From NCBI RefSeq assembly GCF_001746415.1, contig NZ_MEHJ01000001.1, positions 4,175,001-4,239,000 on the forward strand: 64,000 nucleotides of DNA, given 5' to 3'. The DNA is from Streptomyces agglomeratus. Its GTDB lineage: Bacteria > Actinomycetota > Actinomycetes > Streptomycetales > Streptomycetaceae. The position numbers were made by a program, and so were the translations under genes. The notes under the pieces are model-generated. The model did no database searches and was not told the DNA's origin. It saw only the letters and a program-made list of their open reading frames with translations. Position 1 is the first letter of the stretch, and each line of letters opens with the position of its first letter. This document shows, piece after piece, positions 32,213 through 48,089 of the stretch.

Positions 32213-33226
32213 TCAGATCCAGCCGCGGTCGCGGGCCAGGAGCGCCGCCTGGAAGCGGTTCGCGGCGCCGAGCCGGTGCATGAGGTCGGCGATGTACTTG
32301 CGGTACGTGCGCACGGAGAGGCCGACCTCCCGTGCCCCCGACTCGTCCTTGTCCACCTGGTACATGGTGGACAGGATCCTGCGCTCCACGTCGGTGAGCT
32401 GCGCGCCGGGGTCGGAGGTGTGCCCCAGCAGGTCGCGGATGTCGGTGGCGTCGTTCCACATGCGCTCGAAGAGGGAGACGAGGTTGGCCACCAGCCCCGG
32501 CTCCCGGACGAGCAGCGCGCCCTGCACCGAGGCGGTGGGGTCGATCGGGGTGAGGGCGGCGGTGCGGTCGAAGACGAGCAGGCGTTCCAGCGGGCGGTCG
32601 GAGATCCGTATCTCGGCGCCGGCCGCGACGAGTTCCGAGAGGTAGGCCAGCGTCGGCGGGTCACCGGCGGCGGCGGCGCCCATGATGGTCCGCATCCGGA
32701 CGCCCCGGCGCAGGATGCGGGTGTCCAGCGGGCGCGAGGCGGCGATGCTCTCGGCGGTCAGGGTGCCGTGCGGCTGGGTGGTCAGGCCCTCGCTGCGCGT
32801 GTAGAAGGTGAGTTCGTCGATGTGGGCCCGGATCTGCTCCAGGCCCTCGATGCGCTCGATCGCCGGACGGTCGGGGGCGCTCAGCCCCGGGGCGGGACGA
32901 GCGGTCGCGCGCTCGTTCAGCAGCGATTCGACCACGTCCTCCTCGACCACCACCCGTTCGAGCTCCTGGCGCAGTTCGTGCACCTGCTGCTCGATGAGCC
33001 GCTGCACGGCCTTGGCCGGCGGGGCGGGGCGGCTCCTGCCGTCCACGGACGGCTCGGCCAGGTCCCGGGTCAGAAGACGTTCGAGGGCGGCGGCCGTCTG
33101 CTGCGGGCCGGTACCCAGTTCGTCGGCCAGCTCACCGGCCGTCGCCTCGGTCAGCCGCAGCAACGCGCGGTAGCACCGCTCGTCCTCGTCGCTCACGCCC
33201 AGATACGCCAGAGTTCCCCGCTGCAC
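32213..33226 (-). CDS. LuxR-type regulator with TrmB-like N-terminus, probable daptide cluster regulator
   Basis: 337 residues. Residues about 10-60 resemble a TrmB winged helix (SDEDERCYRALLRLTEATAG, ELADELGTGPQQTAAALERL). The middle forms a PLD-like alpha/beta effector domain. The C-terminus (about 270-337) is a LuxR helix-turn-helix (LTDVERRILSTMYQVDKDES, REVGLSVRTYRKYIADLMHR, LGAANRFQAALLARDRGWI). Start GTG 33226 after GGGGGAG. It is divergent from the cluster; tandem GTGCAGCAAGCTGC sites lie in the shared intergenic region, so it is the best candidate pathway regulator. Inducer unknown. Confidence 0.86.
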   Translation of the reverse strand: MQRGTLAYLGVSDEDERCYRALLRLTEATAGELADELGTGPQQTAAALERLLTRDLAEPSVDGRSRPAPPAKAVQRLIEQQVHELRQELERVVVEEDVVESLLNERATARPAPGLSAPDRPAIERIEGLEQIRAHIDELTFYTRSEGLTTQPHGTLTAESIAASRPLDTRILRRGVRMRTIMGAAAAGDPPTLAYLSELVAAGAEIRISDRPLERLLVFDRTAALTPIDPTASVQGALLVREPGLVANLVSLFERMWNDATDIRDLLGHTSDPGAQLTDVERRILSTMYQVDKDESGAREVGLSVRTYRKYIADLMHRLGAANRFQAALLARDRGWI

Positions 33227-33361
33227 GACTCCCCCAGTGCTGGCGCCACCGCCCCGGCGAGCGGCGGCCGTCCGCCCCGATCGTACAGCGGTTGTCTTGA
33301 TACGGCCGTTTCGCGCCTTCCGTGGAACGCGGCGCTCCGGGCCGTGGGTTGCACCGTCCCC

Positions 33362-33485: not shown

Positions 33486-33869
33486 ATGACCGGAAACCAG
33501 TTTCGTACGCAGACCCGCACGCTGACCGCCCGCGCCGCTCTCGCCGCCGCACTTGGACTCGGCGCTCTCCTGACCGTCGGAGCGCCGGCGGCATCGGCGG
33601 CCGACGCGCAGCCCGTGGAGCGCCCGCAGATCACGACGGCCGCCGAGAGTTCCACGGCGGGCGGCGCGGGCTCCGGGAGCGTCACGGCGGACGAGGCCGG
33701 TTCCACGGCCGGGGAAGCGGCGCAGGACCGCTGCATCCTCTACATCGGCGGCACCTGCAAGGTGCGGGCGACCGGGCCGGGCGCGGGGATCTTCAAGCCC
33801 GGCGGCCATGTCGTCATCAAGCCCGGCACCGGCTTCCCCGGCGGCCTGAACACGTTCGACTGGGCCTGA
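33486..33869 (+). CDS. Small secreted protein with one Cys loop
   Basis: 127 residues. A Sec signal peptide (TARAALAAALGLGALLTVGA, cleavage near AASA-AD at residue 40) precedes a Ser/Thr/Ala-rich region and a C-terminal segment containing CILYIGGTC, KVRATGPGAGIFKPGGHVVI and a terminal NTFDWA. The two Cys, eight apart, probably form a disulfide. No family recognised. As the first gene on the cluster side of the LuxR operators it may be co-regulated with the RiPP genes; immunity, signalling or an unrelated envelope role are all open. Confidence 0.7.
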   Translation: MTGNQFRTQTRTLTARAALAAALGLGALLTVGAPAASAADAQPVERPQITTAAESSTAGGAGSGSVTADEAGSTAGEAAQDRCILYIGGTCKVRATGPGAGIFKPGGHVVIKPGTGFPGGLNTFDWA

Positions 33870-33934
33870 CCGCCCCACCCCGCCCGGCCCACCGACCCGC
33901 CCGACCACCAGGCAACCCGAACCAGGAGCGAGCC

Positions 33935-34912
33935 ATGACCGCGTACTCGGTCCTCATCCCCTTCGTACCCCGCAGGCCCGAGCAGGTCCTCCCGTACGCG
34001 GCACTCGTCCAGTGGACCGGGGCGCGGCGGCTGTGGCAGGGCCAGTCCCTAATCCTGGAACCGCACCAGACCTTCGCCCACGTGGCGGGTGCCGGGTTCC
34101 GGGTACCGGTAGGGCTCGGGGTGACGCTGATGCCGCTGCGGCATCCGTACGAGGCGGCGCTCCAGGCCAGGTCGCTGGCGATGCTGACGGGGCAGCCGGT
34201 GGTGGCCGGGTACGGGCCGGGCGGTACGTCGCTCCAGCGCAGTCTGCTCGGCTCCCCCTACCGCAGTCCGCTGACGGCGGCCCGGGAGTACCTGGGTGTC
34301 GTACGGGGGCTGCTGACGGGAGCTTCCGAGGAGGAGGTGGCGGCGGCCGGCGGAGAGTACTTCTCCTGCCACGGCCGGCTCGCCCCCTACCCGGCGCCCC
34401 AGGTGGAACTGGGACTCGGCGTACTGCGGCCGGGAATGGCCAGGGTCGCGGGGGAACTCGCGGACGTCGCCATCACCTGGCTGGCGTCGGCCGACTACCT
34501 GGCCGAGCAGATCATGCCCGCCCTGCGCGAAGGCGCCGCCACCGCCGGCCGCCCGGTGCCCAGGGTGGCCGCCATGGTGCCGCTCGCGCTGACCAGGCCC
34601 GAACGCGAGCCCGCGGAGCTGGCGCTGGCGAGCAACGCGGCACACCTCCAGGCCCCGCACTACCAGGACATGCTGCGGCGCTCCGGCATCGAGGCGCGTG
34701 ACGAGGAGCCGCTCGCCCGCGCCAAGGCGCTGGTCGACGGCGACGCGTTCCTCAGCGGCGACCTCGACGCGCTGACGGAGAAGCTGGCGCGGTACGAACG
34801 GGCGGGCGTCGACGAGGTCGTGCTCAACCTGACCGGAGTCGCCAACCTCTTCGGTCCGCAGGCCGCCATGGCCGAACTCAAGACCCTGCTGGCCGCGCTC
34901 GGCGTGAGCTGA
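33935..34912 (+). CDS. LLM-class (F420/flavin) oxidoreductase of the RiPP cluster
   Basis: 325 residues with the bacterial-luciferase-like TIM barrel: RVPVGLGVTLMPLRHPYEAA, LAMLTGQPVVAGYGPGGTSL, SPLTAAREYLGVVRGLLTGA and a long C-terminal helical part ending VVLNLTGVANLFGPQAAMAE-like. Such enzymes use F420 or FMN. In the lanthipeptide lexapeptide, an F420H2-dependent member of this superfamily (the LanJ_C type) reduces dehydroalanine to D-Ala. The same reaction is a reasonable inference here because a LanKC dehydratase is in the cluster. An RBS (AGGAGCG) precedes ATG 33935. The reaction is inference; the fold is firm. Confidence 0.85.
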   Translation: MTAYSVLIPFVPRRPEQVLPYAALVQWTGARRLWQGQSLILEPHQTFAHVAGAGFRVPVGLGVTLMPLRHPYEAALQARSLAMLTGQPVVAGYGPGGTSLQRSLLGSPYRSPLTAAREYLGVVRGLLTGASEEEVAAAGGEYFSCHGRLAPYPAPQVELGLGVLRPGMARVAGELADVAITWLASADYLAEQIMPALREGAATAGRPVPRVAAMVPLALTRPEREPAELALASNAAHLQAPHYQDMLRRSGIEARDEEPLARAKALVDGDAFLSGDLDALTEKLARYERAGVDEVVLNLTGVANLFGPQAAMAELKTLLAALGVS

Positions 34913-35177
34913 GCCGGCGGGCCGCGACCGACCCGCCGTACCCGTACGACGGCTCCGTACCGCTCCCGCGACGGACCCGTACCCCCACGACCCTTCCACT
35001 CTTCGCGCGGTGCGCCGACGCCCGGTTCGGCATGCGCCCGTACGACACCCACCCCACATCGTGAACCGCCCGCCCGGCGGCCGGACCGCCACGGGCAGCC
35101 CCGGCGCGACACCGCGCCCGCCGGCCACCGAACGTCATCACCCCACGCCGTGATCGCGGCATGAGAGGAGGAATCCC

Positions 35178-36320
35178 ATGAGTGCCACCAAGAGACACCT
35201 GATGCAGTGGGGCACGGGGAGGCCGGCTACGGCCGGTTCCACCGGCTCCGAGTCCGCACCCGGATCACGGCGCGGCGCCGCCACCGTGGTCCTGGAGGAC
35301 CCGGGACACCTCGACGCCGTACTCGCGGCGGGCCTCGCCGGCCCCGGCGCCACCGTCTTCGTCCCCGGTCACCCGGGTACGGAGGCGGGTACCGGTCCGG
35401 ACGCGGGACCGGCCGTGATCGGGTACGAGGGTTCGTTCGGCGAGCCCGGCGGTGAGGGCTCGATCGGCTCCGACTTCTACCTCCAGGTGCAGAGCTACGG
35501 CGTCAGCGCGTACATGTCGGTGGTCGGCCCCACGCTGCTGCGGGTCGCCGACGAAAGCGACTTCGAGGCTTTCCTCGACGACGCCGACCGGGCGCGGCAC
35601 GACGGAGTGTTCGCCGACTTCCTCACGCACCCCGTCATGCAGCTCGCCGATCTCCCCGCCCTGGGCGCGGGACCGTCCGGCGACGGTCCGCTGCTGCGGC
35701 TGCACGTCGCGGCCGACGGCGGCGTCTCCACCTCTCCCACGGGCCGTCGCCTCGGCGAGCCGGGCGACGCGTTCACCGTCCTGGAGGAGAACTGGCGGCG
35801 GTACAACGAGGAGTCCGCGCAGCCCTGTCCGGTTGCCCTCGGGCTGGTGCTGCCGGAGGAAGTACGCTCCGCCGCCCTCGCCGCCCGCCCCTGGCTCGGC
35901 CGGTACCTGGCCGCCGTCGACGGCCTGCGCGACCTGCGGGCCCGTGGCCTCGACCGGCTGCGCGTCTCCGGGTTCGGCGGCCGGATGCTGCCCGCCCTGG
36001 AGGCGGTGCCCGGCGCGGACACGGGAAGCGACGTACCGCTCCTGCTGTGGAACGAGGACGCTTCCTTCCTCTACAGCGCCCACAGCGCCCACAGCACCGA
36101 TTCCGGGCACGGGCCGGGCGCCGGCCGCAGGCTGTTCCAGCTGGAGCGGAAGGCCGCGCAGGCGGCCGAGGCGCTGCTGGTCCTGGGATCGCGGCCCGCC
36201 GCGGCCGAGTTCGCCGATGAGGAGCACCTGGCGGCGGTCGACCGGTTCTTCACCGGGGCGGGCGTGCCGCTGGACTCCGTCGGGGCTGTCGCCGCCGCCT
36301 CCGTACCGGCAGGGCGGTGA
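35178..36320 (+). CDS. Daptide-type RiPP recognition/scaffold protein
   Basis: 380 residues. No catalytic motif is visible. The order of genes (this, methyltransferase, aminotransferase, dehydrogenase, precursors) and its sequence character match the stand-alone recognition protein described for daptide clusters. Notable segments: AATVVLEDPGHLDAVLAAGL, SDFYLQVQSYGVSAYMSVVG, LRLHVAADGGVSTSPTGRRL and WLGRYLAAVDGLRDLRARGL. Presumably it binds the leader peptide and presents the C-terminal Thr to the modifying enzymes. AGGAGG precedes ATG 35178. Its stop overlaps the GTG of the methyltransferase. Assignment is by context plus memory of the family, not a search. Confidence 0.7.
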   Translation: MSATKRHLMQWGTGRPATAGSTGSESAPGSRRGAATVVLEDPGHLDAVLAAGLAGPGATVFVPGHPGTEAGTGPDAGPAVIGYEGSFGEPGGEGSIGSDFYLQVQSYGVSAYMSVVGPTLLRVADESDFEAFLDDADRARHDGVFADFLTHPVMQLADLPALGAGPSGDGPLLRLHVAADGGVSTSPTGRRLGEPGDAFTVLEENWRRYNEESAQPCPVALGLVLPEEVRSAALAARPWLGRYLAAVDGLRDLRARGLDRLRVSGFGGRMLPALEAVPGADTGSDVPLLLWNEDASFLYSAHSAHSTDSGHGPGAGRRLFQLERKAAQAAEALLVLGSRPAAAEFADEEHLAAVDRFFTGAGVPLDSVGAVAAASVPAGR

Positions 36321-37183
36321 CCCCGGTGACCACGACGTTCACGACAGCCGCGACGACACTCCCCATGGCACCCGCGACGGCACCCGCCGCGCGGCTCGTG
36401 CCCGGACGGGCCGGTGAACTGCTCGCCGAACTCGGCGACCGCGCCGTGCTGTGCGACATGTACGACGCGACCGGCTCCGAGGTCTACCACGACCTCGCCG
36501 GTGGCAACACCCTCGAAATCCGCGAACTCCTCGCCGCCATCAGGCCGTTCCCCGGCCCGGTGCTCGACCTGGCGGCCGGCTCCGGCCGGCTGACGTTCCC
36601 GCTGCTCGCGGCGGGCCGGCCGGTCACCGCCCTCGAACTGTCCCCGGACATGCTGCGGCTGCTGCACGCCCGCCTGGACGAGGCGCCCGCCTCGCTGCGC
36701 GGCCGGTGCGACACCGTACGGGCCGACATGAGCGACTTCTCGCTCGGCCGCCGGTACGCGGTCGTCGTCCTGGGCACCACCACCGTCTCCCTGCTGGACG
36801 CCGACGGCCGGGCCGGCCTGTACCGGGCGGTCCGCGACCATCTGGAGCCCGGCGGCCGGTTCCTCCTGTCCACGGTGGACCTCGACCCGGACGACGACGG
36901 GCCGGCCGAGGCGGAGCTGCTGCACGCCGCCCCGAGCGGACGCGCGTACCGGATGTTCGAGCACTGGGTGGACGGCTCCGGCACCCGTACGGTCACCGTC
37001 TTCCCGGCTGAGCCCGGCGCCGGACCCGTCCCCGTGTGCGTGACGTCCATCAACGTCCTGCCCGTCGCCGTACTGGAGGACGAGCTGGCCCGGGCCGGAT
37101 TCGCCGTCCGCTCCCGTATCCCCCTGACCGGCGCCGGCGAGCGCCACCACGACGTACTGCTGGAAGCGGAGGCCCTGCGATGA
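36317..37183 (+). CDS. Daptide-type SAM-dependent N-methyltransferase
   Basis: 288 residues, class I SAM methyltransferase: motif I VLDLAAGSGRLTFPLL at 82-97, the acidic ALELSPDML after strand 2, CDTVRADMSDFSL, then VVVLGTTTVSLLDADGRAGL and LEPGGRFLLSTVDLD. It is expected to dimethylate the amine that the aminotransferase creates at the peptide C-terminus, giving N2,N2-dimethyl-1,2-propanediamine. GTG 36317 overlaps the previous stop. An internal ATG (residue 17) is an alternative start, since the first 25 residues are Thr/Ala-rich. Confidence 0.88.
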   Translation: MTPVTTTFTTAATTLPMAPATAPAARLVPGRAGELLAELGDRAVLCDMYDATGSEVYHDLAGGNTLEIRELLAAIRPFPGPVLDLAAGSGRLTFPLLAAGRPVTALELSPDMLRLLHARLDEAPASLRGRCDTVRADMSDFSLGRRYAVVVLGTTTVSLLDADGRAGLYRAVRDHLEPGGRFLLSTVDLDPDDDGPAEAELLHAAPSGRAYRMFEHWVDGSGTRTVTVFPAEPGAGPVPVCVTSINVLPVAVLEDELARAGFAVRSRIPLTGAGERHHDVLLEAEALR

Positions 37184-38490
37184 GCCGCACGAGCACGAAC
37201 GGCACGGCCGACGCCGTCCGCACCGCACAGGCCCTGTGGCCCTCCCTGCTCGCCCCCTCGGACCACGGCCGCCCCGACCTGTGCGCGGTCTCCGCCGAAG
37301 GCGTCCGGGTCCGGTTCGCCGACGGCCGTGAACTCCTCGACGGATCGAGCGGGTTGTGGAACACGAACATCGGTTACGGCAACCGCGCCATCGCCCGGGC
37401 GGCGGCCGAAGCCCTGACCGACGCCTCCTACCTGAGCGTCTTCCGGTACGAGAACACCTACGCCCGGCGGGCGGCGGACGAACTCGTCGAGCTGGCCGGC
37501 GCCGAGCACTACGGCCGCGTCCTCTTCTCCACCAGCGGCGGCGCCGCCAACGACCTCGTGATGAAGCTGGCCCGGCAGTACCACGCCCTGCGCGGCGAGG
37601 GCCGCCGCAAGATCGTGGTGGGGCTGCGCGGCGGCTACCACGGCCTGACCTTCGGCGGCTTCGCACTCACCGGAGACGACCTCGGCCAGCAGGTGTACGG
37701 CGTCGACCAGCGCCTGGTCCGTCACGTCACGCCCAACGACCCGGCCGAACTGGTGACGCTGCTCGCCCGGCAGGGGGCGCAGATCGCAGCCGTCGTCGTC
37801 GAACCGGTCCTCGGCAGCGGAGCCGTCCCGCTGACCGACGACTATCTCGCCACCCTGCTCGCCCTGCGCGAGGAGCACGGCTTCCTGCTGGTCGCCGACG
37901 AGGTGGCCACCGGGTTCTGCCGTACGGGCGACTTCTTCGCCACCGAGCGCTGGCCCGCCCGGCCGGACCTGCTCATCGCGTCCAAGGGGCTGACCAACGG
38001 CACCAGCGCGGCCGCCGCCGTACTCGCGTCCCGGCAGGTCGCCGGGGTCTTCGACGAGGCCGACGCGGTGCTCAGTCACGGCGAGACGCAGGCCGGGACC
38101 CCCGTCACCTGCGCCACCATCCTGGCCACCCTGGCCGAGATGCGCCGGCTGGACGCGGTGGGCCTGTCCCACCGGCTGTCCGCGCTGCTCGACGAGCGTC
38201 TCGCCGCACTGGCCGCCTCCCACGACCTGGTGACCGGTTCCACCGGGGCCGGCTGCTTCCGCTCGATCCGGCTGCGTACCCCCGACGGAGAGCCGTTCCC
38301 GCAGGCCGAGGTGCCCGCGCTGGTCGCGGCCGTCCGCGCGGCGGGAGCGATCGTCCACCCCGGTGTCCACGGCGTCCAGCTCTTCCCGGCCCTCACCTAC
38401 ACCGAGGCCGACCTGGACGAACTGCTCGGCTGCGTACGGACCGGCCTCGACGCCGTCACCCCGGCGGCACTGGCGGGGTCGGCGCGATGA
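37180..38490 (+). CDS. Daptide-type class III aminotransferase (PLP)
   Basis: 436 residues. Fold type I PLP enzyme: phosphate-binding FSTSGGAANDLVMKLARQYH (about 117-136), ring-stacking region GYHGLTFGG, the Asp that holds pyridine N in LLVADEVATGFCRTGDF (D240) and the Schiff-base Lys in LIASKGLTNG (K269). It resembles acetylornithine/omega-aminotransferases. In the daptide pathway it aminates the C-terminal aminoketone formed by oxidative decarboxylation of Thr. Coupled by ATGA overlaps on both sides to the methyltransferase and dehydrogenase genes. Confidence 0.92.
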   Translation: MSRTSTNGTADAVRTAQALWPSLLAPSDHGRPDLCAVSAEGVRVRFADGRELLDGSSGLWNTNIGYGNRAIARAAAEALTDASYLSVFRYENTYARRAADELVELAGAEHYGRVLFSTSGGAANDLVMKLARQYHALRGEGRRKIVVGLRGGYHGLTFGGFALTGDDLGQQVYGVDQRLVRHVTPNDPAELVTLLARQGAQIAAVVVEPVLGSGAVPLTDDYLATLLALREEHGFLLVADEVATGFCRTGDFFATERWPARPDLLIASKGLTNGTSAAAAVLASRQVAGVFDEADAVLSHGETQAGTPVTCATILATLAEMRRLDAVGLSHRLSALLDERLAALAASHDLVTGSTGAGCFRSIRLRTPDGEPFPQAEVPALVAAVRAAGAIVHPGVHGVQLFPALTYTEADLDELLGCVRTGLDAVTPAALAGSAR

Positions 38491-39701
38491 GCCTGAGCTG
38501 GTCCGGGCCCACCCGGCTGCTGCACGGCGGTGACGGACTCACCACCTGGCTGGAGGACTTCCGCGGCCACCGCGTCACCCTCCTCGCCGACGCGGCCGTC
38601 GCCGACGCCGCCATCACGCGTACGGTGACCGACCGCCTGGGCCGCTCCCGCCTCGACACCGACACGGTCGTACTGGACGGCCCCGGCGACGCCCACTCGA
38701 TCGCCGCCCTCGCGAGCCGGCTCGACGGCACCGACCTGGTGATCGGGATCGGCGGCGGCACCCTGCTCGACCAGGCCAAACTCGCCGCGCTGCAGCACGC
38801 CGTACCCGAGGCGGGCGGGGTGCTGACCGGCCCGCAGCGCAGCGGACTCGTCGTGCTGCCGCGCTGGACGGCGCGGAGCGTGCCGCTGGTGGCCGTACCC
38901 ACCACGGTGGGCACCGGGTCCGAGCTGAGCCACGTGGCCTGCCTGGCGCACGGGGACGGCAAGCGGCTGGTCATGGGCGGGGCACTGCGGCCCGACGCGG
39001 CCCTGATGGACCCCGCCGCCACGGCGACGCTGCCGGACGAGCTGCTCGCGGAGGGCGTCCTCGAGGCGCTGTTCCGGGTGGTCAGCCCGTACGTCGGGGA
39101 CCACCGGGACCTGCCCGTCGAGGACGCGCTGGCCGAGACGGTCGCCGGGCTGCTGACCACGCTGGGGCACCGGGTGCGCGAGGACCGGCTGGCCGGGCGG
39201 CAGCCCGACGAGCGGGTCCGCGGCGACATCGCCCGGCTCAGCGGGCTGGGCCACGCCGACTGGCTGAACCTGGGCCGGCCGCCCTTCGCGGTCAAGGGCT
39301 GGCTGGTCGCCAACGAACTGTCCCACGCGCTGGGCATCCGCAAGGTCACCGCCGTGGCGGCCCTGCTGCCGGCGCTGTGGCGGGCCGTGCTCGACGGGGA
39401 CGAACGGCTCGGCTCCGCGCCGCGGCTGCGCCGGCTGTGGGCCGGGCTGCGGGCGACCGCCCCCGGCGTACTGCCCGCCGACCCGGCCGACGGAGTCGCC
39501 GCGCTGGCTGGGCACTGGCTGATCGACAGCCGGACAGCGGCGGACGCCGGCCGGCTGGACGCGATCACGGCTCGGATCGTACGGGCCTGGGGTGCGGGGC
39601 TGCCGATGCTCGGCGGCCTGCGGGCCGACGACATCCGCCGGCTCCTCGGGGACGCGGTGGCGTCCCCGCCGGTGCCCGTGCGGATGCCCACCGCGGCCTG
39701 A
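38487..39701 (+). CDS. Daptide-type dehydrogenase (iron-containing ADH fold)
   Basis: 404 residues. The NAD-binding GIGGGTLLDQAK (87-98) and PTTVGTGSELS (138-148) place it in the class III (iron) alcohol dehydrogenase superfamily. It should oxidise the beta-hydroxyl of the C-terminal Thr, after which the beta-keto acid loses CO2. The metal site looks altered: the usual G-x-D-A-x-x-H helix reads GVLEALFRVV (L192 and F196 at the Asp and His positions), and the His of the second helix region is replaced near RKVTAVAALLP; only H280 appears kept. Either metal-independent chemistry or another ligand set is implied. Coupled to the aminotransferase by ATGA. Confidence 0.87.
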   Translation: MSLSWSGPTRLLHGGDGLTTWLEDFRGHRVTLLADAAVADAAITRTVTDRLGRSRLDTDTVVLDGPGDAHSIAALASRLDGTDLVIGIGGGTLLDQAKLAALQHAVPEAGGVLTGPQRSGLVVLPRWTARSVPLVAVPTTVGTGSELSHVACLAHGDGKRLVMGGALRPDAALMDPAATATLPDELLAEGVLEALFRVVSPYVGDHRDLPVEDALAETVAGLLTTLGHRVREDRLAGRQPDERVRGDIARLSGLGHADWLNLGRPPFAVKGWLVANELSHALGIRKVTAVAALLPALWRAVLDGDERLGSAPRLRRLWAGLRATAPGVLPADPADGVAALAGHWLIDSRTAADAGRLDAITARIVRAWGAGLPMLGGLRADDIRRLLGDAVASPPVPVRMPTAA

Positions 39702-39721
39702 CGGCCGCCACCACAGACTTC

Positions 39722-39750
39722 CGCGCCGGACGGATCGGTCCTCCGGCGCG
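39722..39750 (+). terminator. Hairpin between biosynthetic and precursor genes
   Basis: CGCGCCGGA pairs with TCCGGCGCG around an 11-nt loop, 20 nt after the dehydrogenase stop and about 60 nt before the first precursor. There is no U run; it could be an attenuator or an RNA-processing/stability element that sets precursor dosage. Confidence 0.5.
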
Positions 39751-39810
39751 GCAGAGAAACACACACGCGTCACGGGGCTCACGAAGCCCACGACAACACA
39801 GGAGATGACC

Positions 39811-40008
39811 ATGCAGGACGTTTTCAAGTCCGGCCAGGAGCTGGGCGCGCAGGGCGCGTTCCCGGCGGAGCTGGAGCTCGGCATGCAGGAGCTCGAGGCC
39901 ATGGAGGCGCCGGGCTGGTGGACGGCGGCCGGTGTCAGCGCGGGCGTCGTCGGCACCTCGGCCGCGGGCTACCTGAGCTACGTCGCCTCCGCCGCGATCA
40001 TCACCTGA
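39811..40008 (+). CDS. Daptide-like RiPP precursor peptide 1
   Basis: 65 residues, no Cys. Leader: MQDVFKSGQELGAQGAFP, then the acidic ELELGMQELEAMEAPG. The predicted core (residues 35-65) starts GWWTAAGVSAGVVG and ends YVASAAIIT, so a free C-terminal Thr is available for conversion to the daptide amine. Hydrophobic, Ala/Gly/Val-rich and probably helical. ATG 39811 is chosen because GGAG at 39801 is correctly spaced and it matches the start of precursor 2; ATG 39805 would add two residues. The core also contains Thr4, Ser9, Thr15, Ser16, Ser22 and Ser26 as possible dehydration sites. Confidence 0.9.
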   Translation: MQDVFKSGQELGAQGAFPAELELGMQELEAMEAPGWWTAAGVSAGVVGTSAAGYLSYVASAAIIT

Positions 40009-40081
40009 TCCGGCCGCACCACAAGCGGTACCTCACCACCGCACAACCCATCGACTTCTCCCACAGCAAAGGAAATTGACC

Positions 40082-40279
40082 ATGGAGAACATCTACAAGT
40101 CCGGCCAGGAGCTGGGCGCGCAGGGCGCGTTCCCGGCGGAGCTGGAGCTCGGCATGCAGGAGCTCGAGGCCATGGAGGCGCCGGGCTGGTGGACGGCGGC
40201 CGGTGTCAGCGCCGGTGTCGTCGGCACCTCGGCCGCGGGCTACCTGAGCTACGTCGCCTCCGCCGCGATCATCACCTGA
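40082..40279 (+). CDS. Daptide-like RiPP precursor peptide 2
   Basis: 65 residues, identical to precursor 1 from residue 6 to the end; only residues 2-5 differ (MENIYKSG against MQDVFKSG). The DNA is also nearly identical, with a few silent changes in the core, so this is a recent tandem duplication that raises dosage of one product. AGGAAA precedes ATG 40082. It ends in SAAIIT-stop like copy 1. Confidence 0.9.
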   Translation: MENIYKSGQELGAQGAFPAELELGMQELEAMEAPGWWTAAGVSAGVVGTSAAGYLSYVASAAIIT

Positions 40280-40292
40280 TCCGGCCCGCCGA

Positions 40293-40351
40293 ACCGCACC
40301 ACAGGCAGTACCGCACCACCGCACCACAGGCAGTACCGCACCACAGGCAGT
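40293..40351 (+). repeat. 17-bp tandem repeat between precursors 2 and 3
   Basis: ACCGCACCACAGGCAGT occurs three times (40293-40309, 40318-40334, 40335-40351), with a partial unit at 40310-40317 and another at 40352. A related ACCGCACCACAAGCGGT follows precursor 1 at about 40014-40030, so the spacer was duplicated along with the precursors. Confidence 0.93.
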
Positions 40352-40393
40352 ACCGCAGTACCTCACCGCATCTCATCGACGTAAGGAACTCTC

Positions 40394-40561
40394 ATGGAGC
40401 ACCTCACCCCCGCCTTCCAGGGCACCCAGGACGGCACCGACGCGCTGGAGCTGAACATGCAGGAGCTGGAGGCCATGGAGGCCCCGGGCTTCTGGACCGG
40501 CTTCACCGCCGGCGCCGCGATCAGCGGTGCGGCCATCGCCTCCGCCGCCATCGCCACCTGA
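40394..40561 (+). CDS. Daptide-like RiPP precursor peptide 3
   Basis: 55 residues, no Cys. It shares the MQELEAMEAPG leader end with the other two but has a distinct N-terminus (MEHLTPAFQGTQDGTDALEL) and a shorter core, from residue 32: GFWTGFTAGAAISG, ending ASAAIAT. The terminal Thr is retained, supporting the same C-terminal chemistry and a second product. Candidate dehydration sites in the core are Thr4, Thr7, Ser13 and Ser19. AAGGAACT precedes ATG 40394. Confidence 0.9.
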   Translation: MEHLTPAFQGTQDGTDALELNMQELEAMEAPGFWTGFTAGAAISGAAIASAAIAT

Positions 40562-40606
40562 CGGCGCCGCGCCACCTGGCGCTCCGCCCCTGACGGCGCT
40601 CCGCGT

Positions 40607-40634
40607 CCCGGCCGGGTGACGACACCCGGCCGGG
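40607..40634 (+). terminator. Strong hairpin after the precursor genes
   Basis: CCCGGCCGGGTG pairs perfectly with CACCCGGCCGGG (12 bp, ACGA loop), 45 nt after precursor 3 and 63 nt before the next gene. No U tract. It probably acts as a partial terminator or 3' stabiliser that makes precursor mRNA more abundant than transporter mRNA. Confidence 0.7.
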
Positions 40635-40696
40635 CGCGGCCCCACTTCCCCCCACCCCGCACAGCAGCACCCGGACTTCCGGAACTGGAGACACTC

Positions 40697-40906
40697 ATGC
40701 CGCAGCCGGCCTCCCCGCCCCCCTCGAACCCGTCCCGCGCCGGCGGCAGGACCGCCCTCGCCGCCGCCTTCCTGGTCATCGCCACGTCCCTCGCCCTGAT
40801 CGCGCTCGACGGCACCGCTCGCGTCGCCGTCACCGCCGTGCTGGTGGCCGGTCTGCTGGTGTGCGCGGGAGTGTTCGGCGCCCAGCTCCGGTCGGCCCGC
40901 CGATGA
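40697..40906 (+). CDS. Small two-helix membrane protein of the RiPP cluster
   Basis: 69 residues. A Pro/Ser-rich start, then two hydrophobic helices (TALAAAFLVIATSLALIALD and VAVTAVLVAGLLVCAGVFGA) and a basic end QLRSARR. The stop overlaps the ATG of the ABC ATPase, which ties it to export or immunity. No family recognised; a role as a transporter accessory or immunity peptide is inference. Confidence 0.72.
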   Translation: MPQPASPPPSNPSRAGGRTALAAAFLVIATSLALIALDGTARVAVTAVLVAGLLVCAGVFGAQLRSARR

Positions 40907-41715
40907 GCGCCGGCCCGGTCGTCGCCTTCCGGAACCTGACCAAGAGCTTCGGCGGGGTCACGGCCGTGGAGGACCTCACGTTCGAGGTCCGGCCGGGCCG
41001 TGTCACCGGGCTGCTCGGGCGCAACGGGGCCGGCAAGACCACCACCCTGCGGATGCTCCTCGGACTCGCTGCCCCGACCTCCGGCTCGGCCACCGTCTTC
41101 GGCAGCCCGTACGCGCAACTTCCGCGCGCCGCGCACCGCGTGGGCGTCTGCATGGACGGCCTGGGCTCGGTCCCCGGCGCCACCGGCCGCCGGGAACTGG
41201 ACATCTGGTCCGCCACCCTGGGCCTGCCGGCCCGCAGGACCGACGAAGTCCTCGGCCTCGTCGGCCTGTCCGAGGCGGCCGACCGCCCGGTCAAGGGGTA
41301 CTCGACGGGCATGCGCCAGCGCCTCGGCCTGGCCACCGCCCTCCTTCCCGACCCCGAACTGCTGATCCTCGACGAGCCGGCCAACGGCCTCGACCCGGAC
41401 GGCATCCGACAGCTCCGCGAGACCCTGCGCGCCCTCGCGGCCGAGGGCCGCACCGTCCTGGTCTCCAGCCACCTTCTCGCCGAGGTCGAGCAGACCGTCG
41501 ACGACGTGGTGGTCGTCCAGCGCACCCTGCGGTACGCCGGCACGCTCGCCGACCTCACCGGCAACGGCGCCCACCGCCTCGAAGACCGCTTCTTCGCACT
41601 GGCCGGAGAGGCGCCCGGAACCGACGCGGCTTCCGGAGCGACCGGACCCCGGCCCGAAGCGAATCCCGAAGCGAAGCCGGGATCGAAGCCCGAGGGGAGC
41701 CTCACCCATGCGTGA
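40903..41715 (+). CDS. ABC transporter ATP-binding protein (RiPP export/immunity)
   Basis: 270 residues. Walker A GLLGRNGAGKTTTLRMLLGL, signature YSTGMRQRLGLATALLPDPE (drug-ABC variant), Walker B LLILDEPANGLDPDG and switch VSSHLLAEVEQ: the DrrA/BcrA-type ATPase of ABC-2 systems. The C-terminal tail is Pro/Glu-rich. ATG 40903 overlaps the upstream stop and the gene overlaps the permease by 8 nt. It probably exports the mature peptide or protects the producer from it. Confidence 0.93.
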   Translation: MSAGPVVAFRNLTKSFGGVTAVEDLTFEVRPGRVTGLLGRNGAGKTTTLRMLLGLAAPTSGSATVFGSPYAQLPRAAHRVGVCMDGLGSVPGATGRRELDIWSATLGLPARRTDEVLGLVGLSEAADRPVKGYSTGMRQRLGLATALLPDPELLILDEPANGLDPDGIRQLRETLRALAAEGRTVLVSSHLLAEVEQTVDDVVVVQRTLRYAGTLADLTGNGAHRLEDRFFALAGEAPGTDAASGATGPRPEANPEAKPGSKPEGSLTHA

Positions 41716-42451
41716 CCTGATCACCGCCGAGTGGCGCAAGGCCACCACCGGCCGCACCTGGTGGATCCTCGCGGGCCTCGGCGTACTGATGAGCCTGACC
41801 TCCGGCTTCGGCTTCGCCTCCCAGGGCGACGCTGCCATCACCACCGGAGCGGCCTCACCGTCCGCCGTCACCGACGACGTGGTGCGGGCCTGGATGATGA
41901 CGTTCCTCTTCTCGTCGCTGTTCGGCGCCCTGCTCGTCACCCGTGAGTACGCGAGCGGCTCCATCACGCGCTCGGTCCTCCTCAGTGGCACCCGCGGCCG
42001 CCTCTTCGCGGCCAAACTGACCGTCGCCACGCTCTCGGGAGTCCTGTACGGGCTGCTGGCGGCCGCCCTGGCGGCCCTCTGCGCGTACGCGACCCTCAAC
42101 CACTTCGGCCACAGCCCCGAGTGGACCACCGAGACCACCCTCATCGCGCTCGGCGTCCTCGCCTGCAACGTGCTGGCGGCGGCCTGGGGCGCGTTCCTCG
42201 GCTGGATCGTGCGGCACCAGACGGCGACGGTCGTGCTGCTGATGGCCCTCACCCTGCTGGTGGACCCCGGAGTGCAGCAACTCGCCCCGGACGTCGCCAA
42301 GTTCCTGCTGACCATCGCCATGAGCTCGGTCTACCGGGACGCCAAGCCCGACCTGCTCTCCGTCCCGGTCGCCCTGCTCGTCATCGGCGGCTGGCTGACC
42401 GCGGCCGGGTTCGCCGCCCGCAAGCTGCTGTTCACCCGCGACGTTACGTGA
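41708..42451 (+). CDS. ABC-2 type transporter permease (RiPP export/immunity)
   Basis: 247 residues with six predicted membrane helices. An N-terminal cytoplasmic LITAEWRKATTGRTWWIL is typical of BcrB/ABC-2 permeases; the TREYASGSITRSVLLSGTRG loop after TM2 is the usual coupling segment (REYxxGT-like). Overlaps the ATPase gene, giving stoichiometric synthesis. Works with the upstream ATPase in export or self-protection. Confidence 0.91.
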   Translation: MRDLITAEWRKATTGRTWWILAGLGVLMSLTSGFGFASQGDAAITTGAASPSAVTDDVVRAWMMTFLFSSLFGALLVTREYASGSITRSVLLSGTRGRLFAAKLTVATLSGVLYGLLAAALAALCAYATLNHFGHSPEWTTETTLIALGVLACNVLAAAWGAFLGWIVRHQTATVVLLMALTLLVDPGVQQLAPDVAKFLLTIAMSSVYRDAKPDLLSVPVALLVIGGWLTAAGFAARKLLFTRDVT

Positions 42452-42464
42452 GGTAAGGCCCGAC

Positions 42465-44105
42465 ATGCCCACCAAGACAGCACCCGCCGGCGGCGACACC
42501 GCCCTCATCGACCGGCCCCGCACCGCCCCCGACGTCGCGGTGCACGAGCCCGTCGAGGACGGTGCCCCCTGGGTCGTCCAGCGCGGCCACCACCAGCACT
42601 TCCGGGTCGCCCCCGACCTCGCCCGGCTGATCCGCACCCTGGACGGCACCCGCGACCACGCCGAGCTGGCGCAGGTCCTGGGCCCGCCCTGGACCTCCGG
42701 CCACGTGGACACCGCCGTACGCAGGCTCGCGGGCAGCAAGCTGCTCGACGACGGGCGGCCGCGCCGCCGCAAGGCGTCCTGGGTGCGGTTCGTGCCTCCG
42801 CTGACCGTCCAGTTCACGGTGGTCCGGCCCGAACGGGTGCTGGCCCGGCTGGTGCCCGTCATCTCGGCGCTCGCGAACCGGGCGATGGCGGTCGTCGCCG
42901 CGGCCGTCGCCGTCGGCGGCATCCTCGCCCTCGCGCTGCTGGCCCCGGCCCTCACCGGCGCGCTCGGCCGGCCGCTGCCGCTGGCCGCGTACCTCGGGGT
43001 CGTCGCCGGCGTACTCGCCACCACGGTCGTCCACGAGATCGGCCACGGCGCGGTCCTGACCTACTACGGCGGGCGCCCCAGCCGGATGGGCGTGATGCTC
43101 TTCTACCTCTCGCCCGCCTTCTTCTGCGACGTGTCGGACGGCTGGCGGCTTCCGCACCCCCACCAGCGCGTCAGGGTGGCCCTGGCCGGCATCACGACGC
43201 AGACCGTGATCGCCGGTTCCGCCGCGCTCACCGCCCTGTTCCTCGGCCCCACGACCCTGCGCGACGCCCTGCTGGTGCTGGCCCTGACGACGTACGTCTC
43301 CGGACTGGTCAACCTCCTCCCGCTGGTCAAGCTCGACGGCTACATCGCTCTCATGAGCCACCTGGACATTCCCCACCTGCGGGACAGGGCGATGACCGAC
43401 GGCCGCCGCTGGCTGACCCGCGTCCTGTTCGGCGGCCGGTACGAGCGTGAACTGCCCGGCCGCTCCTGGTCGGTCCCGTACGGCCTGGCCTGCGCCGCCT
43501 TCCCGCTCTACATCGTCGCCGGGGCCCTCGCCCTGTGGTCGGACCTGCTCCAGCGGCTCGGCCCCGTCGGCGCCTGGATGCTCTTCCTGGGCGTCGGCTA
43601 CCTGCTCTACCGGCTGGGCGCGGGCTACGTCCGTGCCTGCCGGGAGGCCCGCGCCGCCGGCGGCCGTCCGTGGCGCACCGTCGCCGTCACCGCCGTGGTG
43701 GCGGGCGCGGCCACCGCCGCCGCCCTGCTCGTACAGCTGCCCCTGGCCGTCTCCGGCGGGTACGTCACGCGGGCCGACGGGCGCACCGAGCTGGTCCTGC
43801 CGACCAGCGCCGACCGGTCGCTGATCCGGGAGGGCGCCACGGTCGAGCTCATCACCTCCGGCCTGATGACCCGCCGGCAGACGGGCTCGGCGACGGTCGC
43901 CGCCGCCGGCCCGGCCGAGTCCACGGCATCGATCTCGGCTTTCCTCCCGGTCCGTACGGACGCCCTTCCGTCGCCCGTACTGGCCTACCCCCTGAGCGTC
44001 GGCGAGGCCCCCGAGGACCGCACGGGCACCGCCCGGATCGACGCCGGGACCCGTCCGCTGTGGGACTGGGTCCTCACCAAGTACATCGCCCCGGTGTGGC
44101 GCTGA
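42465..44105 (+). CDS. M50-type membrane metalloprotease, probable leader peptidase of the daptide cluster
   Basis: 546 residues. The zinc-protease motif HEIGH is at 190-194 within a membrane helix, and the third ligand motif is VKLDGY at 288-293, as in site-2 proteases. Several further membrane helices follow, then an extracytoplasmic C-terminal domain (about 410-546: SADRSLIREGATVELITSGL). Residues about 35-100 (HHQHFRVAPDLARLIRTLDG, then VDTAVRRLAGSKLLDDG) look like a PqqD-type winged helix, which would bind the leader. It likely removes the leader near MEAPG during export. AGGTAAGG precedes ATG 42465. Confidence 0.86.
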   Translation: MPTKTAPAGGDTALIDRPRTAPDVAVHEPVEDGAPWVVQRGHHQHFRVAPDLARLIRTLDGTRDHAELAQVLGPPWTSGHVDTAVRRLAGSKLLDDGRPRRRKASWVRFVPPLTVQFTVVRPERVLARLVPVISALANRAMAVVAAAVAVGGILALALLAPALTGALGRPLPLAAYLGVVAGVLATTVVHEIGHGAVLTYYGGRPSRMGVMLFYLSPAFFCDVSDGWRLPHPHQRVRVALAGITTQTVIAGSAALTALFLGPTTLRDALLVLALTTYVSGLVNLLPLVKLDGYIALMSHLDIPHLRDRAMTDGRRWLTRVLFGGRYERELPGRSWSVPYGLACAAFPLYIVAGALALWSDLLQRLGPVGAWMLFLGVGYLLYRLGAGYVRACREARAAGGRPWRTVAVTAVVAGAATAAALLVQLPLAVSGGYVTRADGRTELVLPTSADRSLIREGATVELITSGLMTRRQTGSATVAAAGPAESTASISAFLPVRTDALPSPVLAYPLSVGEAPEDRTGTARIDAGTRPLWDWVLTKYIAPVWR

Positions 44106-44170
44106 CGGCGGCCCGCCGCCCCGCACCCCCCGGCCCCTGACGCATCCCGAGCGGGAAGAGACCCGAGACC

Positions 44171-46795
44171 ATGGACCTTCGCTACCTGCACCACTGCCCG
44201 GTGGGCACGCCGTACTACGACGTTCCCGACACGGGCGCCACCGCCGACCAGGACTTCGCGGCGGTCCTCGCCCCGCCGCCGCCCGGCTGGACGCAGGGCG
44301 ACCTCGCGGAGTGGGTGGTCCTGACCCCGCCGGACCACGAACTGCCCGCGCAGGGCTGGAAGATCCACGTCTCGGCCGGTCCGGACAACGCCGAGCGCGT
44401 CCTGGAGACGGTCCGCTCGTACTGCTTCGAGCAGGGCCTGATGTTCAAGTTCATCCGCAGCTCCACGCTCCTGCACCGCCGCAACAGCAAGTACGGCGAC
44501 CGGGGCAGCAGCGGCAAGTTCATGGCGCTCTACCCGCTGAACGACGAGCAGCTCGCGGTGGTCCTGGCCGAACTGGGCGAACTGCTGGACGGGGAGAGCG
44601 GCCCGTACATCCTCAGCGACCTGCGCTGGCGCTTGGGTCCGCTGTACGTCCGCTACGGCGGTTTCGTGGCCCGCATGGGCCGCGCCCCCTCCGGCGAGCT
44701 GGTCCACTGCATCGAGGACCCCGACGGCCGGCTCGTCCCCGACGTACGCGGCCCCTCCTTCCGGCCGCCGGGCTGGGTCACCCTGCCCGCGTGCCTCCAG
44801 GAGGCGCTGGCGGCGCGCGGCGCGGGCACGCTGCGCGACTTCCCGTTCCGTGCCACCAAGGCCCTGCACTTCTCCAACGGCGGCGGCGTGTACCGCGCCA
44901 CCCACCTGCACAACGGTTCCGAGGTACTGCTCAAGGAGGCCCGCCCGCTGGCCGGGCTGGACGAGGACGGCACCGACGCGGTGACCCGGCTCGCCCGCGA
45001 ACACTGGGCGCTGACCACGCTGGCCGGACTGCCGGCCGTCCCGCGCGCCCTCGACTTCCGCAAGGGCAGCGAGCACTGGTTCCTCGCCCGGGAGTACGTC
45101 GAAGGCGCGTCCCTGGCCAAGGAGAGCGCCATGTGCAACCCGGTCGTGGGCGGCGCCGGGAGCGTCACCGCGCAGGACACCGCGGCGTACACCCGCTGGG
45201 CGCTGGACATCCTCGACCAGGTGGACGAGACCGTACGGGCCATGCACGGCCGCGGTGTGGTCTTCGGCGACCTGCACCCCAACAACATCCTCGTCCGTCC
45301 GGACGGCACGGTGGCCTTCATCGACATGGAGACCGCCAGCGAGGCCGCCGACGACACCGCCCAGGCCATCGGAGCGCCCGGCTTCCGGGCCCCGGCGGGC
45401 TGGAGCGGCACCGCGGTCGACCGCTACGCGCTGGGCTGCCTGCGGCTGTCCGTCTTCCTCCCGCTGACGGTGGTGATGCCCTGGGCGCCCGAGAAGACCG
45501 ACCAGCTCCTGGAGCTGATCACCGACCGTTTCCCCGTACCGCCGGGCTTCGCCGACCAGGTCCGCCGCGAGCTGGGCCACACCTCCGCCCCGCCCGCCGG
45601 CGCCCGGCGCGCCACCGACGTGGTGTGGGCCGCGCCCGACGCCGGGAACTGGCCGGAGACCCGCGAGCGCATCGCGGCCGCCGTCCTCGCCTCGGCGACC
45701 CCGCACCGTACGGACCGGCTCTTCCCCGGAGACGTCGAGCAGTTCACCACCCCGGGCGGCGGACTGGGGTTCGCCAACGGCGCGGCCGGCGTGCTGTGGG
45801 CCCTCGCCGAGACCGGGACCACCGTCCCCGGGGAGCACGTCGAGTGGCTGACGGCCGCGGTCCGCACCGCGCCGGACCCGCAGCCCGGATTCCACCACGG
45901 GCTGGCGGGCATCGCGTACGCGCTGGACCGGCTCGGCCGCCCGGCGGAGGCCCTCGGCGTACTGGACCGGGCCCTCGCGCTGCCGCGGGAGGAGCTGGAC
46001 GACAGCCTGCACGCGGGCCTGTCGGGCCTGGGGCTGACGCTGCTGCACTTCGCGGACCGCACCGGTGAGCGCGGTCTGCTGGACGAGGCGGCCGCGACAG
46101 CCGCCCGCGTCATCTCCCGCCCGCACGCCGACACCCCCGGCAAGCGGCTCCCCGGCCTGCTGCACGGCGGCTCCGGTGAGGCCCTGTTCCTGCTGCGGAT
46201 GTACGAACGCACCCTGGACGGCGCCTACCTGACCGCCGCCGAGTCCGCCCTGCGGCGCGACCTGGCGGAGACCGGCCGGCTGCCGTACGAGGAGGCGCCG
46301 GAGGGCGCCCCCTGGGCCCGCCCGCACCTGGGCGCGGGAAGCGCCGGCCTGGGCATGGTGCTGCACGACTTCCTCGCGCACCGGCCCGACCCGGAACTGG
46401 CCGCCGTACGCGACACCGTGCGACGGGAACTCCAGCCCGAATTCGCCCACCAGAGTGGCCTGTTCAACGGCCGGGCCGGTACGCTCGCGGCCCTGACGCA
46501 CCTCGACGACGGCAGCCAGGACACGGAGCGCGCGATCCGCGCCCACCTGGCCGGTTTCGGCTGGCACGCCATCCCGCACCAGGGACACCTGACGTTCCTC
46601 GGCGACCAGACGCTGCGGCTGTCGGCCGACCTCGGCACCGGCGCGTGCGGCGTACTGCTCACCGTGGACGCCGCACTGGCCGCCAGGCCGTGCCTGCCCT
46701 TCTTCGCCGCCCTCCCCGCTTCCCGGCCCGCCCCGCCGGAACCCCGCGCCGCCGTACGCCCGCCCGTACGGCTCCTCGCCGGCACCGCCCGCTGA
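44171..46795 (+). CDS. Class III lanthipeptide synthetase-like protein (LanKC)
   Basis: 874 residues with the full LanKC order. Lyase (about 1-205): MFKFIRSSTLLHRRNSKYGD and LRWRLGPLYVRYGGFVARMG. Kinase (about 225-480): Gly loop FSNGGGVYRATH, Lys in EVLLKEARP (K255), catalytic VVFGDLHPNNILV (D367, N372), metal site FIDMETAS (D385). Cyclase-like toroid (about 520-850): GLLHGGSGEALFLLRM and LGTGACGVLL, without the Cys-Cys-His zinc ligands, as normal for class III. It should phosphorylate Ser/Thr and eliminate phosphate to give Dha/Dhb. The three precursors have no Cys, so thioether rings cannot form. Confidence 0.93.
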   Translation: MDLRYLHHCPVGTPYYDVPDTGATADQDFAAVLAPPPPGWTQGDLAEWVVLTPPDHELPAQGWKIHVSAGPDNAERVLETVRSYCFEQGLMFKFIRSSTLLHRRNSKYGDRGSSGKFMALYPLNDEQLAVVLAELGELLDGESGPYILSDLRWRLGPLYVRYGGFVARMGRAPSGELVHCIEDPDGRLVPDVRGPSFRPPGWVTLPACLQEALAARGAGTLRDFPFRATKALHFSNGGGVYRATHLHNGSEVLLKEARPLAGLDEDGTDAVTRLAREHWALTTLAGLPAVPRALDFRKGSEHWFLAREYVEGASLAKESAMCNPVVGGAGSVTAQDTAAYTRWALDILDQVDETVRAMHGRGVVFGDLHPNNILVRPDGTVAFIDMETASEAADDTAQAIGAPGFRAPAGWSGTAVDRYALGCLRLSVFLPLTVVMPWAPEKTDQLLELITDRFPVPPGFADQVRRELGHTSAPPAGARRATDVVWAAPDAGNWPETRERIAAAVLASATPHRTDRLFPGDVEQFTTPGGGLGFANGAAGVLWALAETGTTVPGEHVEWLTAAVRTAPDPQPGFHHGLAGIAYALDRLGRPAEALGVLDRALALPREELDDSLHAGLSGLGLTLLHFADRTGERGLLDEAAATAARVISRPHADTPGKRLPGLLHGGSGEALFLLRMYERTLDGAYLTAAESALRRDLAETGRLPYEEAPEGAPWARPHLGAGSAGLGMVLHDFLAHRPDPELAAVRDTVRRELQPEFAHQSGLFNGRAGTLAALTHLDDGSQDTERAIRAHLAGFGWHAIPHQGHLTFLGDQTLRLSADLGTGACGVLLTVDAALAARPCLPFFAALPASRPAPPEPRAAVRPPVRLLAGTAR

Positions 46796-46809
46796 CCAGG
46801 GAGACCGAC

Positions 46810-47103
46810 ATGACTGCCCCGAACGCCCACGACCACGTATTAATCGTTCCAAGGGACGACGGCGGGGCGGGAGCACCCGAGCTGGCCGCGGTCCGCCTGA
46901 TCGCCCTGCTGCCGCCCCAGTGGCGGTACGCCCCGACGTACCCCGGCCAGAAGGTCTGTCTGCGGGTCAGCACGGGCGGCCGGGCGAGCGCCGCCGAGGT
47001 CCGCTCGCTGGTGGACCGGGCACTGGCCGACCCGGGCCTGCGCGCCTGGCGGCGTACCGCCTCCTGCGACGAGCGCGTACCCCGCCCGGCGACCTCGGTC
47101 TGA
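46810..47103 (+). CDS. Small protein at the end of the RiPP cluster
   Basis: 97 residues, directly after LanKC (14-nt gap, GGGAGA site). It begins MTAPNAHDHVLIVPRDDGGA, continues LAAVRLIALLPPQWRYAPTY and ends with VRSLVDRALADPGLRAWRRT and CDERVPRP. Two Cys, no signal or membrane segment. No family recognised. Its position suggests a partner of LanKC or the last accessory gene of the operon. Confidence 0.72.
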   Translation: MTAPNAHDHVLIVPRDDGGAGAPELAAVRLIALLPPQWRYAPTYPGQKVCLRVSTGGRASAAEVRSLVDRALADPGLRAWRRTASCDERVPRPATSV

Positions 47104-47195: not shown

Positions 47196-47255
47196 GCGGG
47201 GGTGACTTCAGGCCGGGGTGACTTCAAATGAGGGTGACTTTCAGGTGAGGGTGAC
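47196..47255 (-). repeat. 16-bp tandem repeat at the 3' end of the GPP34 gene
   Basis: Read on the minus strand, GTCACCCTCACCTGA (the last codons and stop of the GPP34 gene) is followed by three diverged copies of the pattern AAGTCACCC-N5-TGA. Each copy repeats the stop codon. Confidence 0.8.
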
Positions 47256-47894
47256 GGCCGTCACGGCGGCGATCGTCGCGGTGGTGGCGGCCTGCACCGC
47301 CCGCACGGCGTCCCGCACCAGGGGAACCGACCACTGCCCCTGCGCCAGCTCGGTCAGGCGCCGGTCGAGCGCCTTCTTCTCCGCCTCGGGGAACGCAAGC
47401 TCCTGGAGCCCCGCGCCGTGCAGCAGCCCCAGCAGCGCCACCGTCCGCTCGTCGGGCTCGGCGCCGCCGTGGACCACCGCCTCCAGCGTGTCCCGCAGCT
47501 CGCGCTCCACGCTCCCGTCGGCCTCCGGGTAGCGGCGGGTCGGGAAGATCCCCCAGACCCGCTTCCTCTCCTCGCGCACGAGGCCCCGCTCCAGCAGCCG
47601 CCCACGCGCCGCGTTCACCGCGTCCTTCTGGAGCAGCTCGACCCAGTCGCGCGCCTTGCGGGGCTTCTCCCGCCCGGCGAGGGCCGCGAGCACCGGATCC
47701 ACGGCGGGCTCCCCGACCGGTGCCGCGTCCCGCACCACGATGTCCTTGCCCACCACGGCGATACGCCCCAGGAGCGCCAGCTCCACCAGCGCGGCCCCCG
47801 CCACCGCCAGCCCCGTCCTCATCGGCTCCTGGCCGGCACCCGTGTCGTCCTCCAGCGAGAGGAGCATGACCTGTTCCCCGAGCGTGCTGTCCAC
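47241..47894 (-). CDS. GPP34 (GOLPH3/VPS74-like) family protein
   Basis: 217 residues. The pattern DSTLGEQVMLLSLEDDTGAG, VAGAALVELALLGRIAVVGK, LERGLVREERKRVWGIFPTR and VALLGLLHGAGLQELAFPEA is that of the actinobacterial GPP34 family, related to the Golgi phosphoprotein that binds phosphatidylinositol-4-phosphate. Role in bacteria not established. GTG 47894 start; an upstream in-frame ATG would run into the terminator region. It marks the return to core-type genes after the RiPP cluster. Confidence 0.9.
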   Translation of the reverse strand: MDSTLGEQVMLLSLEDDTGAGQEPMRTGLAVAGAALVELALLGRIAVVGKDIVVRDAAPVGEPAVDPVLAALAGREKPRKARDWVELLQKDAVNAARGRLLERGLVREERKRVWGIFPTRRYPEADGSVERELRDTLEAVVHGGAEPDERTVALLGLLHGAGLQELAFPEAEKKALDRRLTELAQGQWSVPLVRDAVRAVQAATTATIAAVTAVTLT

Positions 47895-47948
47895 AGCTGT
47901 TCCCCATCCCCGAGTCGTTACCGCTGAGCGACGGTCCTCGCTCAACGA

Positions 47949-47984: not shown

Positions 47985-48004
47985 TCTGCCCTGACGGGCA
48001 AGTG

Positions 48005-48089
48005 CGGAGGATACGAGATTCGAACTCGTGAGGGGTTGCCCCCAACACGCTTTCCAAGCGTGCGCCCTAGGCCACTAGGCGAATCCTCC
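48005..48089 (-). tRNA. tRNA-Ser (anticodon GGA)
   Basis: Acceptor GGAGGAT/ATCCTCC, discriminator G. Anticodon stem CACGC/GCGTG with loop TTGGAAA, giving GGA. Long variable arm; T arm with TTCGAAT. About 85 nt. Confidence 0.95.

Follow-up and report, generated by a model that had tools for sequence, protein, structure and literature searches.

The founding daptide pathway is that of the mpa cluster of Microbacterium paraoxydans (PMC10036551). As described, this pathway starts with oxidative decarboxylation of the C-terminal Thr by DapB and DapC; transamination by DapD and dimethylation by DapM then yield Dmp (PMC10036551, PMC12338566). The mpa system has in common with the locus analyzed here the leader motif, the C-terminal Thr and the B/C/D/M chemistry predicted below, with the difference that its authors picked it as encoding primary enzymes only (PMC10036551). 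Daptide clusters carrying LanKC/LanJC pairs are already on record (PMC10036551). The sca cluster of Streptomyces capuensis NRRL B-3501, expressed by Ren et al. 2023, combines the primary daptide enzymes with LanKC/LanJC, as does the present locus; its product carries Dmp and five Ser converted to Ala, D-Ala being detected in the mixture of two major products (PMC10036551). Its cores probably differ from those reported here. The tfDap cluster of Thermobifida fusca has the same DapBCDM, P, T1T2, LanKC and LLM genes but is distinguished by five precursors and by a YcaO protein making imidazoline (PMC12338566); no match to YcaO models was found among the proteins scanned between positions 31053 and 47945 of the window, the 64,000-nucleotide stretch of Streptomyces agglomeratus DNA under analysis. 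Staphylococcal hominicin shares the Dmp C-terminus and a lanthipeptide dehydratase, and differs from the product predicted here in its retained dehydrobutyrines and dimethylated N-terminus (PMC10036551). LxmJ of lexapeptide, a class V lanthipeptide and no daptide, is a luciferase-like F420H2-dependent enzyme that reduces dehydroalanine to D-Ala (PMC8498797), the activity predicted below for the LLM protein.

Gene content and limits of the cluster

The segment 33935-46795 very probably holds a daptide cluster that is complete, of standard streptomycete make-up and of the type with LanKC and LanJ (Table 1). All its genes lie on the forward strand of the 9.13 Mb host genome, in the order LLM reductase (J), DapB, DapM, DapD, DapC, three precursors, a small membrane protein, ABC ATPase, permease, DapP and class III LanKC. 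Five adjacent gene pairs overlap by 4-8 nt each, among them B/M (36317-36320), M/D (37180-37183), D/C (38487-38490) and T1/T2 (41708-41715). The sequence-only reading had placed a daptide-type cluster of mostly overlapping genes here; the genes that it named are all present at about the positions it gave and the overlaps B/M, M/D, D/C and T1/T2 are real.

Table 1. Features of the locus and of its immediate neighbors, in window positions
Feature	Coordinates	Strand	Evidence
Probable pathway regulator	32213-33229	-	TrmB-like N-terminus, LuxR-type (GerE) helix-turn-helix C-terminus; divergent from cluster
127-aa protein	33486-33869	+	Signal-peptide-like start (by eye), two Cys; between regulator and LLM gene
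DapJ/LanJ-type LLM (luciferase-like) reductase, 325 aa, predicted dehydroalanine reductase	33935-34912	+	PF00296 2.2e-30
DapB, RRE-bearing recognition partner of oxidative decarboxylase	35178-36320	+	NF041823 daptide_RRE 385.8 bits, cut-off 150
DapM, SAM N-methyltransferase	36317-37183	+	NF041820 daptide_MTase 320.9 bits, cut-off 175
DapD, class III PLP aminotransferase	37180-38490	+	NF041821 daptide_amino 644.4 bits, cut-off 450; PF00202
DapC, Fe-ADH-fold oxidative decarboxylase	38487-39701	+	NF041822 daptide_DH 484.9 bits, cut-off 300; PF00465
Precursor DapA1, 67 aa, core GWWTAAGVSAGVVGTSAAGYLSYVASAAIIT	39805-40008	+	NF041808 daptide-type RiPP 39.6 bits, cut-off 25
Precursor DapA2, 65 aa, core identical to A1	40082-40279	+	NF041808 39.6 bits, cut-off 25
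Precursor DapA3, 55 aa, core GFWTGFTAGAAISGAAIASAAIAT	40394-40561	+	NF041808 36.1 bits, cut-off 25
Predicted 69-aa membrane protein	40697-40906	+	ORF; 4-nt overlap with ABC ATPase gene
DapT1, ABC transporter ATPase	40903-41715	+	PF00005
DapT2, ABC-2 type permease	41708-42451	+	PF12730 33.9 bits, cut-off 27
DapP, intramembrane metalloprotease, expected leader removal after MEAP	42465-44105	+	NF041824 daptide_HExxH 531.4 bits, cut-off 300
DapKC/LanKC, class III lanthionine synthetase, predicted Ser dehydratase here	44171-46795	+	NF038151 950.7 bits, cut-off 575
97-aa protein directly behind LanKC	46810-47103	+	tblastn homologues behind LanKC in L006, L009

The identity of the core enzymes is a direct observation. 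DapB, DapM, DapD, DapC and DapP were scored against the NCBI daptide equivalog models with their curated cut-offs and pass them by wide margins, which makes chance irrelevant; the daptide_RRE model matches none of 14 control genomes. The dehydrogenase, aminotransferase and methyltransferase, on whose family hits the sequence-only reading had made its daptide assignment depend, are all above cut-off; that assignment is right. The top NCBIfam match of DapT1 is a lantibiotic-protection ABC ATPase (175.8 bits, under the cut-off of 309.75), DapP matches Pfam M50 weakly, under its gathering score, and the 69-aa membrane protein has no family match above any cut-off. In an alignment of DapC with the YqhD-type alcohol dehydrogenase 4qgs, the residues opposite the metal ligands, at what we take to be the ligand positions, appear substituted. 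This agrees with the statement on T. fusca DapC that its metal ligands are substituted and its reaction independent of added metal (PMC12338566).

The span 33486-47103 originally delimited also takes in two small genes without family match, one at each end. At E up to 0.001, database searching gives the 127-aa protein two matches: one is 100% identical and listed without source, like the protein itself, and the other, its one relative, comes from Streptomyces flavidovirens (81% identity over 40%). The 127-aa protein was rejected as a part of the pathway and is left as a neighbor, its only match among the daptide loci compared being its own locus (L001). The 97-aa protein also scores by tblastn in L126 (the same place as L009) and L129, and has five database homologues, S. 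flavidovirens included, none with a Pfam domain; it is possibly a lineage-specific accessory. The two domains of the probable regulator fall slightly under their Pfam gathering scores (TrmB 25.1 bits, cut-off 25.6; GerE 21, cut-off 23.5), and its homologues are divergent from LanJ in four other loci (L006, L009, L012, L018). A scan for promoters and terminators between 39600 and 40960 found none with a consensus that may not suit S. agglomeratus.

The downstream flank codes for a GPP34 (GOLPH3-like) protein (47241-47945, reverse strand), followed by a tRNA-Ser gene (48004-48089, reverse strand); a gene like that of DNA polymerase III gamma/tau lies at 48251 and one like purD at 50563. Further on, an 830-aa frame (54199-56691, forward strand) joins an N,N-dimethylformamidase-like domain (residues 115-431) to SAICAR synthetase (residues 550-799); it represents a fusion or else two genes taken for one.

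Precursors, modifying enzymes and proposed pathway

The three precursors belong to the daptide family by direct evidence. As in the sequence-only reading, each is free of Cys and ends in Thr; in addition each passes NF041808 and has a leader ending in MQELEAMEAP, an instance of the ELExMEAP-like motif that together with the invariant Thr characterizes daptide precursors. Absence of Cys sets them apart from lanthipeptides, whose cores provide Cys for (methyl)lanthionine, and no thioether rings are therefore expected. The genes of A1 and A2 differ at 2 of 183 shared nucleotides and their cores are identical, a detail missed by the earlier reading, so that three genes encode two distinct core peptides and two predicted products. 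The A1/A2 core has four Ser and two internal Thr, that of A3 two Ser and two internal Thr.

The synthetase carries RamC_N lyase, kinase (Pkinase) and LANC_like domains in a single chain, the arrangement that defines class III; the class III LanKC of the earlier reading is genuine. Its kinase motifs GDLHPNN and FIDME are retained, and 8sao is among its solved homologues. Residues 424-825 contain no Cys; class III enzymes are not known to carry the usual LanC zinc cysteines. Two more class III LanKC genes occur elsewhere in the genome (L117 and L118; 1156.5 and 1125.1 bits, above cut-off). In the midpoint-rooted drawing of a LanKC tree built with 29 of 32 tblastn finds (L153, L157 and L159, under 600 aa, were dropped), L117 and L118 fall inside a weakly supported group (80/58) of 20 sequences. 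They are not cleanly outside the daptide LanKCs, and the tree is thus no demonstration of a single LanKC recruitment.

The top NCBIfam match of the LLM protein is the F420-dependent family TIGR03564 (125.2 bits, cut-off 234.25). All its matches to F420 subfamilies lie below cut-off, as with every other curated NCBIfam model, so dehydroalanine reduction is assigned from context and homology. The closest solved structure by sequence is the F420-dependent methylene-tetrahydromethanopterin reductase Mer (1z69), and the host genome encodes the F420 enzyme CofE with a score above cut-off; the cofactor may be F420.

We infer all chemical steps of the pathway from published homologues. LanKC would phosphorylate core Ser and eliminate to dehydroalanine, which the LLM reductase would convert to D-Ala; conversion is expected at every Ser and at no internal Thr. 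DapB would bind the leader and hand the peptide to DapC for oxidation and decarboxylation of the C-terminal Thr to an aminoacetone, which DapD may transaminate to 1,2-diaminopropane and DapM dimethylate to Dmp. DapP would then cleave after the proline of MEAP, and the ABC pair would export two distinct hydrophobic peptides. Both predicted products end in Dmp; that of A1/A2 has 31 residues with four D-Ala, that of A3 has 24 with two. Their computed [M+H]+ values are 2876.582 (A1/A2) and 2134.181 (A3), against 2957.504 and 2183.113 for the unmodified cores and 2940.562 and 2166.171 for cores changed only by Dmp; reduction of internal Thr as well would give 2844.592 and 2102.191. The sequence-only reading was right to propose that LanKC and the LLM protein form a second modification layer, for which the sca product is a precedent (PMC10036551).

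Distribution, synteny and core Ser content

DapB scores above cut-off in 24 of 392 genomes of the genus sample, S. agglomeratus included. The search returned 30 places. Four were left out: the cluster's own locus, L094 and L096, which are pieces of loci otherwise included, and L095, a fragment at a contig end. The 26 regions from the other 23 genomes were compared by tblastn with the proteins of this cluster. LanKC is found in 24 of these 26, including all 24 with a DapD match, and LanJ in 25. The two regions without LanKC are L148, truncated by its contig end, and L150, a remnant in which J and B alone are found; the one without LanJ (L136) is also cut by a contig end. L150 is a second locus of its genome (G125), with LanJ, a DapB match in two pieces and no further daptide genes by tblastn; it is possibly a decayed cluster. 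The class sample has 394 genomes, of which 17 score above the DapB cut-off (L112 and L113, with matches below it, were left out); two of the 17 also belong to the genus sample. Among the other 15, tblastn finds LanKC in five, three of which are Streptomyces (L151, L157, L159), and LanJ in six; in L152 the contig breaks off on the cluster side of DapB, the side where LanKC would be expected. Seventeen daptide-like loci were compared for gene order, and J-B-M-D-C-T1-T2-P-KC is conserved in 10/10 Streptomyces loci with both J and KC.

LanKC/LanJ-bearing daptides are published (PMC10036551) and common in Streptomyces. The sequence-only reading had suggested that the full combination might define a new class of product. 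The genes do occur together, but the same enzymes are published for S. capuensis, whose products were examined, and for T. fusca (PMC10036551, PMC12338566), and the combination is common in the genus sample. A new class was therefore rejected and is given almost no credence; since the combination is characterized in another Streptomyces (PMC10036551), the locus belongs to a known class, as one of its ordinary members.

Clusters with LanKC and LanJ should have Ser-richer cores if the pair acts on them. Precursors were found by the chosen leader motif, which those with other leaders would escape. The counts exclude L160 and L161 (no motif-matching precursor), a spurious ORF of L164, the incomplete L148, L150 and L152, and also L002-L018, since several of these last duplicate contigs of the sampled genomes. 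L136 was counted with the LanKC clusters though LanJ is unseen there, the contig ending near DapB; absence of LanKC is less certain in L155, whose stretch has only 13.2 kb. The Ser fraction of distinct cores has an upper median of 0.176 and a minimum of 0.100 in the 30 LanKC clusters, the present one included (0.109, near the low end), against a median of 0.011 and a maximum of 0.067 in the seven without LanKC. The two groups do not overlap (Mann-Whitney p 4.9e-5, uncorrected for ancestry). Per distinct core, the 60 cores with LanKC have 2-8 Ser and the 15 without have 0-3; none of these 75 contains Cys. After collapse at 70% identity, 37 cores average 0.155 Ser against 0.024 for 12. Core Ser content thus separates LanKC from no-LanKC clusters, an observation that is new here and has ancestry as a confounder: 28 of the 30 LanKC clusters are in Streptomyces (the others being L153 and L154) and all seven without LanKC lie outside it. 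Family f18 includes both kinds: cores have seven and six Ser in L153, which has LanKC, and 0-1 in L155, L156, L158 and L165, which lack it; two of these loci, L153 and L165, come from a single genus.

These data bear on the alternative that LanKC and the LLM enzyme act in a separate lanthipeptide pathway and merely adjoin the daptide genes. LanKC enzymes also occur outside daptide clusters, and this genome has two more LanKC genes elsewhere. Against this, J and KC flank the daptide genes on both sides in all ten Streptomyces loci that have both, the small genes identified between them here are the three Cys-free precursors and that of the 69-aa membrane protein, core Ser content goes with LanKC presence, and in sca a LanKC/LanJC pair acts on a daptide (PMC10036551). 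Synteny, Cys-free precursors, core Ser content and the sca precedent together make a separate lanthipeptide extremely unlikely.

Another reading keeps the daptide layer as known but has LanKC and LanJ also turn internal Thr into D-aminobutyrate, giving a product more modified than that of sca. Internal Thr is indeed enriched with LanKC (upper median 0.090 against a median of 0.022 without; 0.073 against 0.021 after the 70% collapse), and hominicin contains dehydrobutyrines, as the earlier reading correctly stated in citing it as a daptide precedent (PMC10036551). Yet the Thr fractions of the two groups overlap, whereas their Ser fractions do not; the hominicin-like cluster is staphylococcal and has its own type of enzymes; and the passage describing the sca product reports five converted Ser and mentions no Thr conversion (PMC10036551). 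Conversion of internal Thr is on balance unlikely. Its stronger form, in which LanKC and LanJ convert Ser and internal Thr to D-Ala and D-aminobutyrate with the 97-aa protein as dedicated partner, is very unlikely; if true, it would put up to six D-residues into the A1/A2 daptide and four into that of A3.

The S. agglomeratus cluster brings two further cores to a class in which few products are characterized, and changes no general view. The link between LanKC and core Ser points to a simple sequence criterion by which daptides that bear D-Ala might be predicted.
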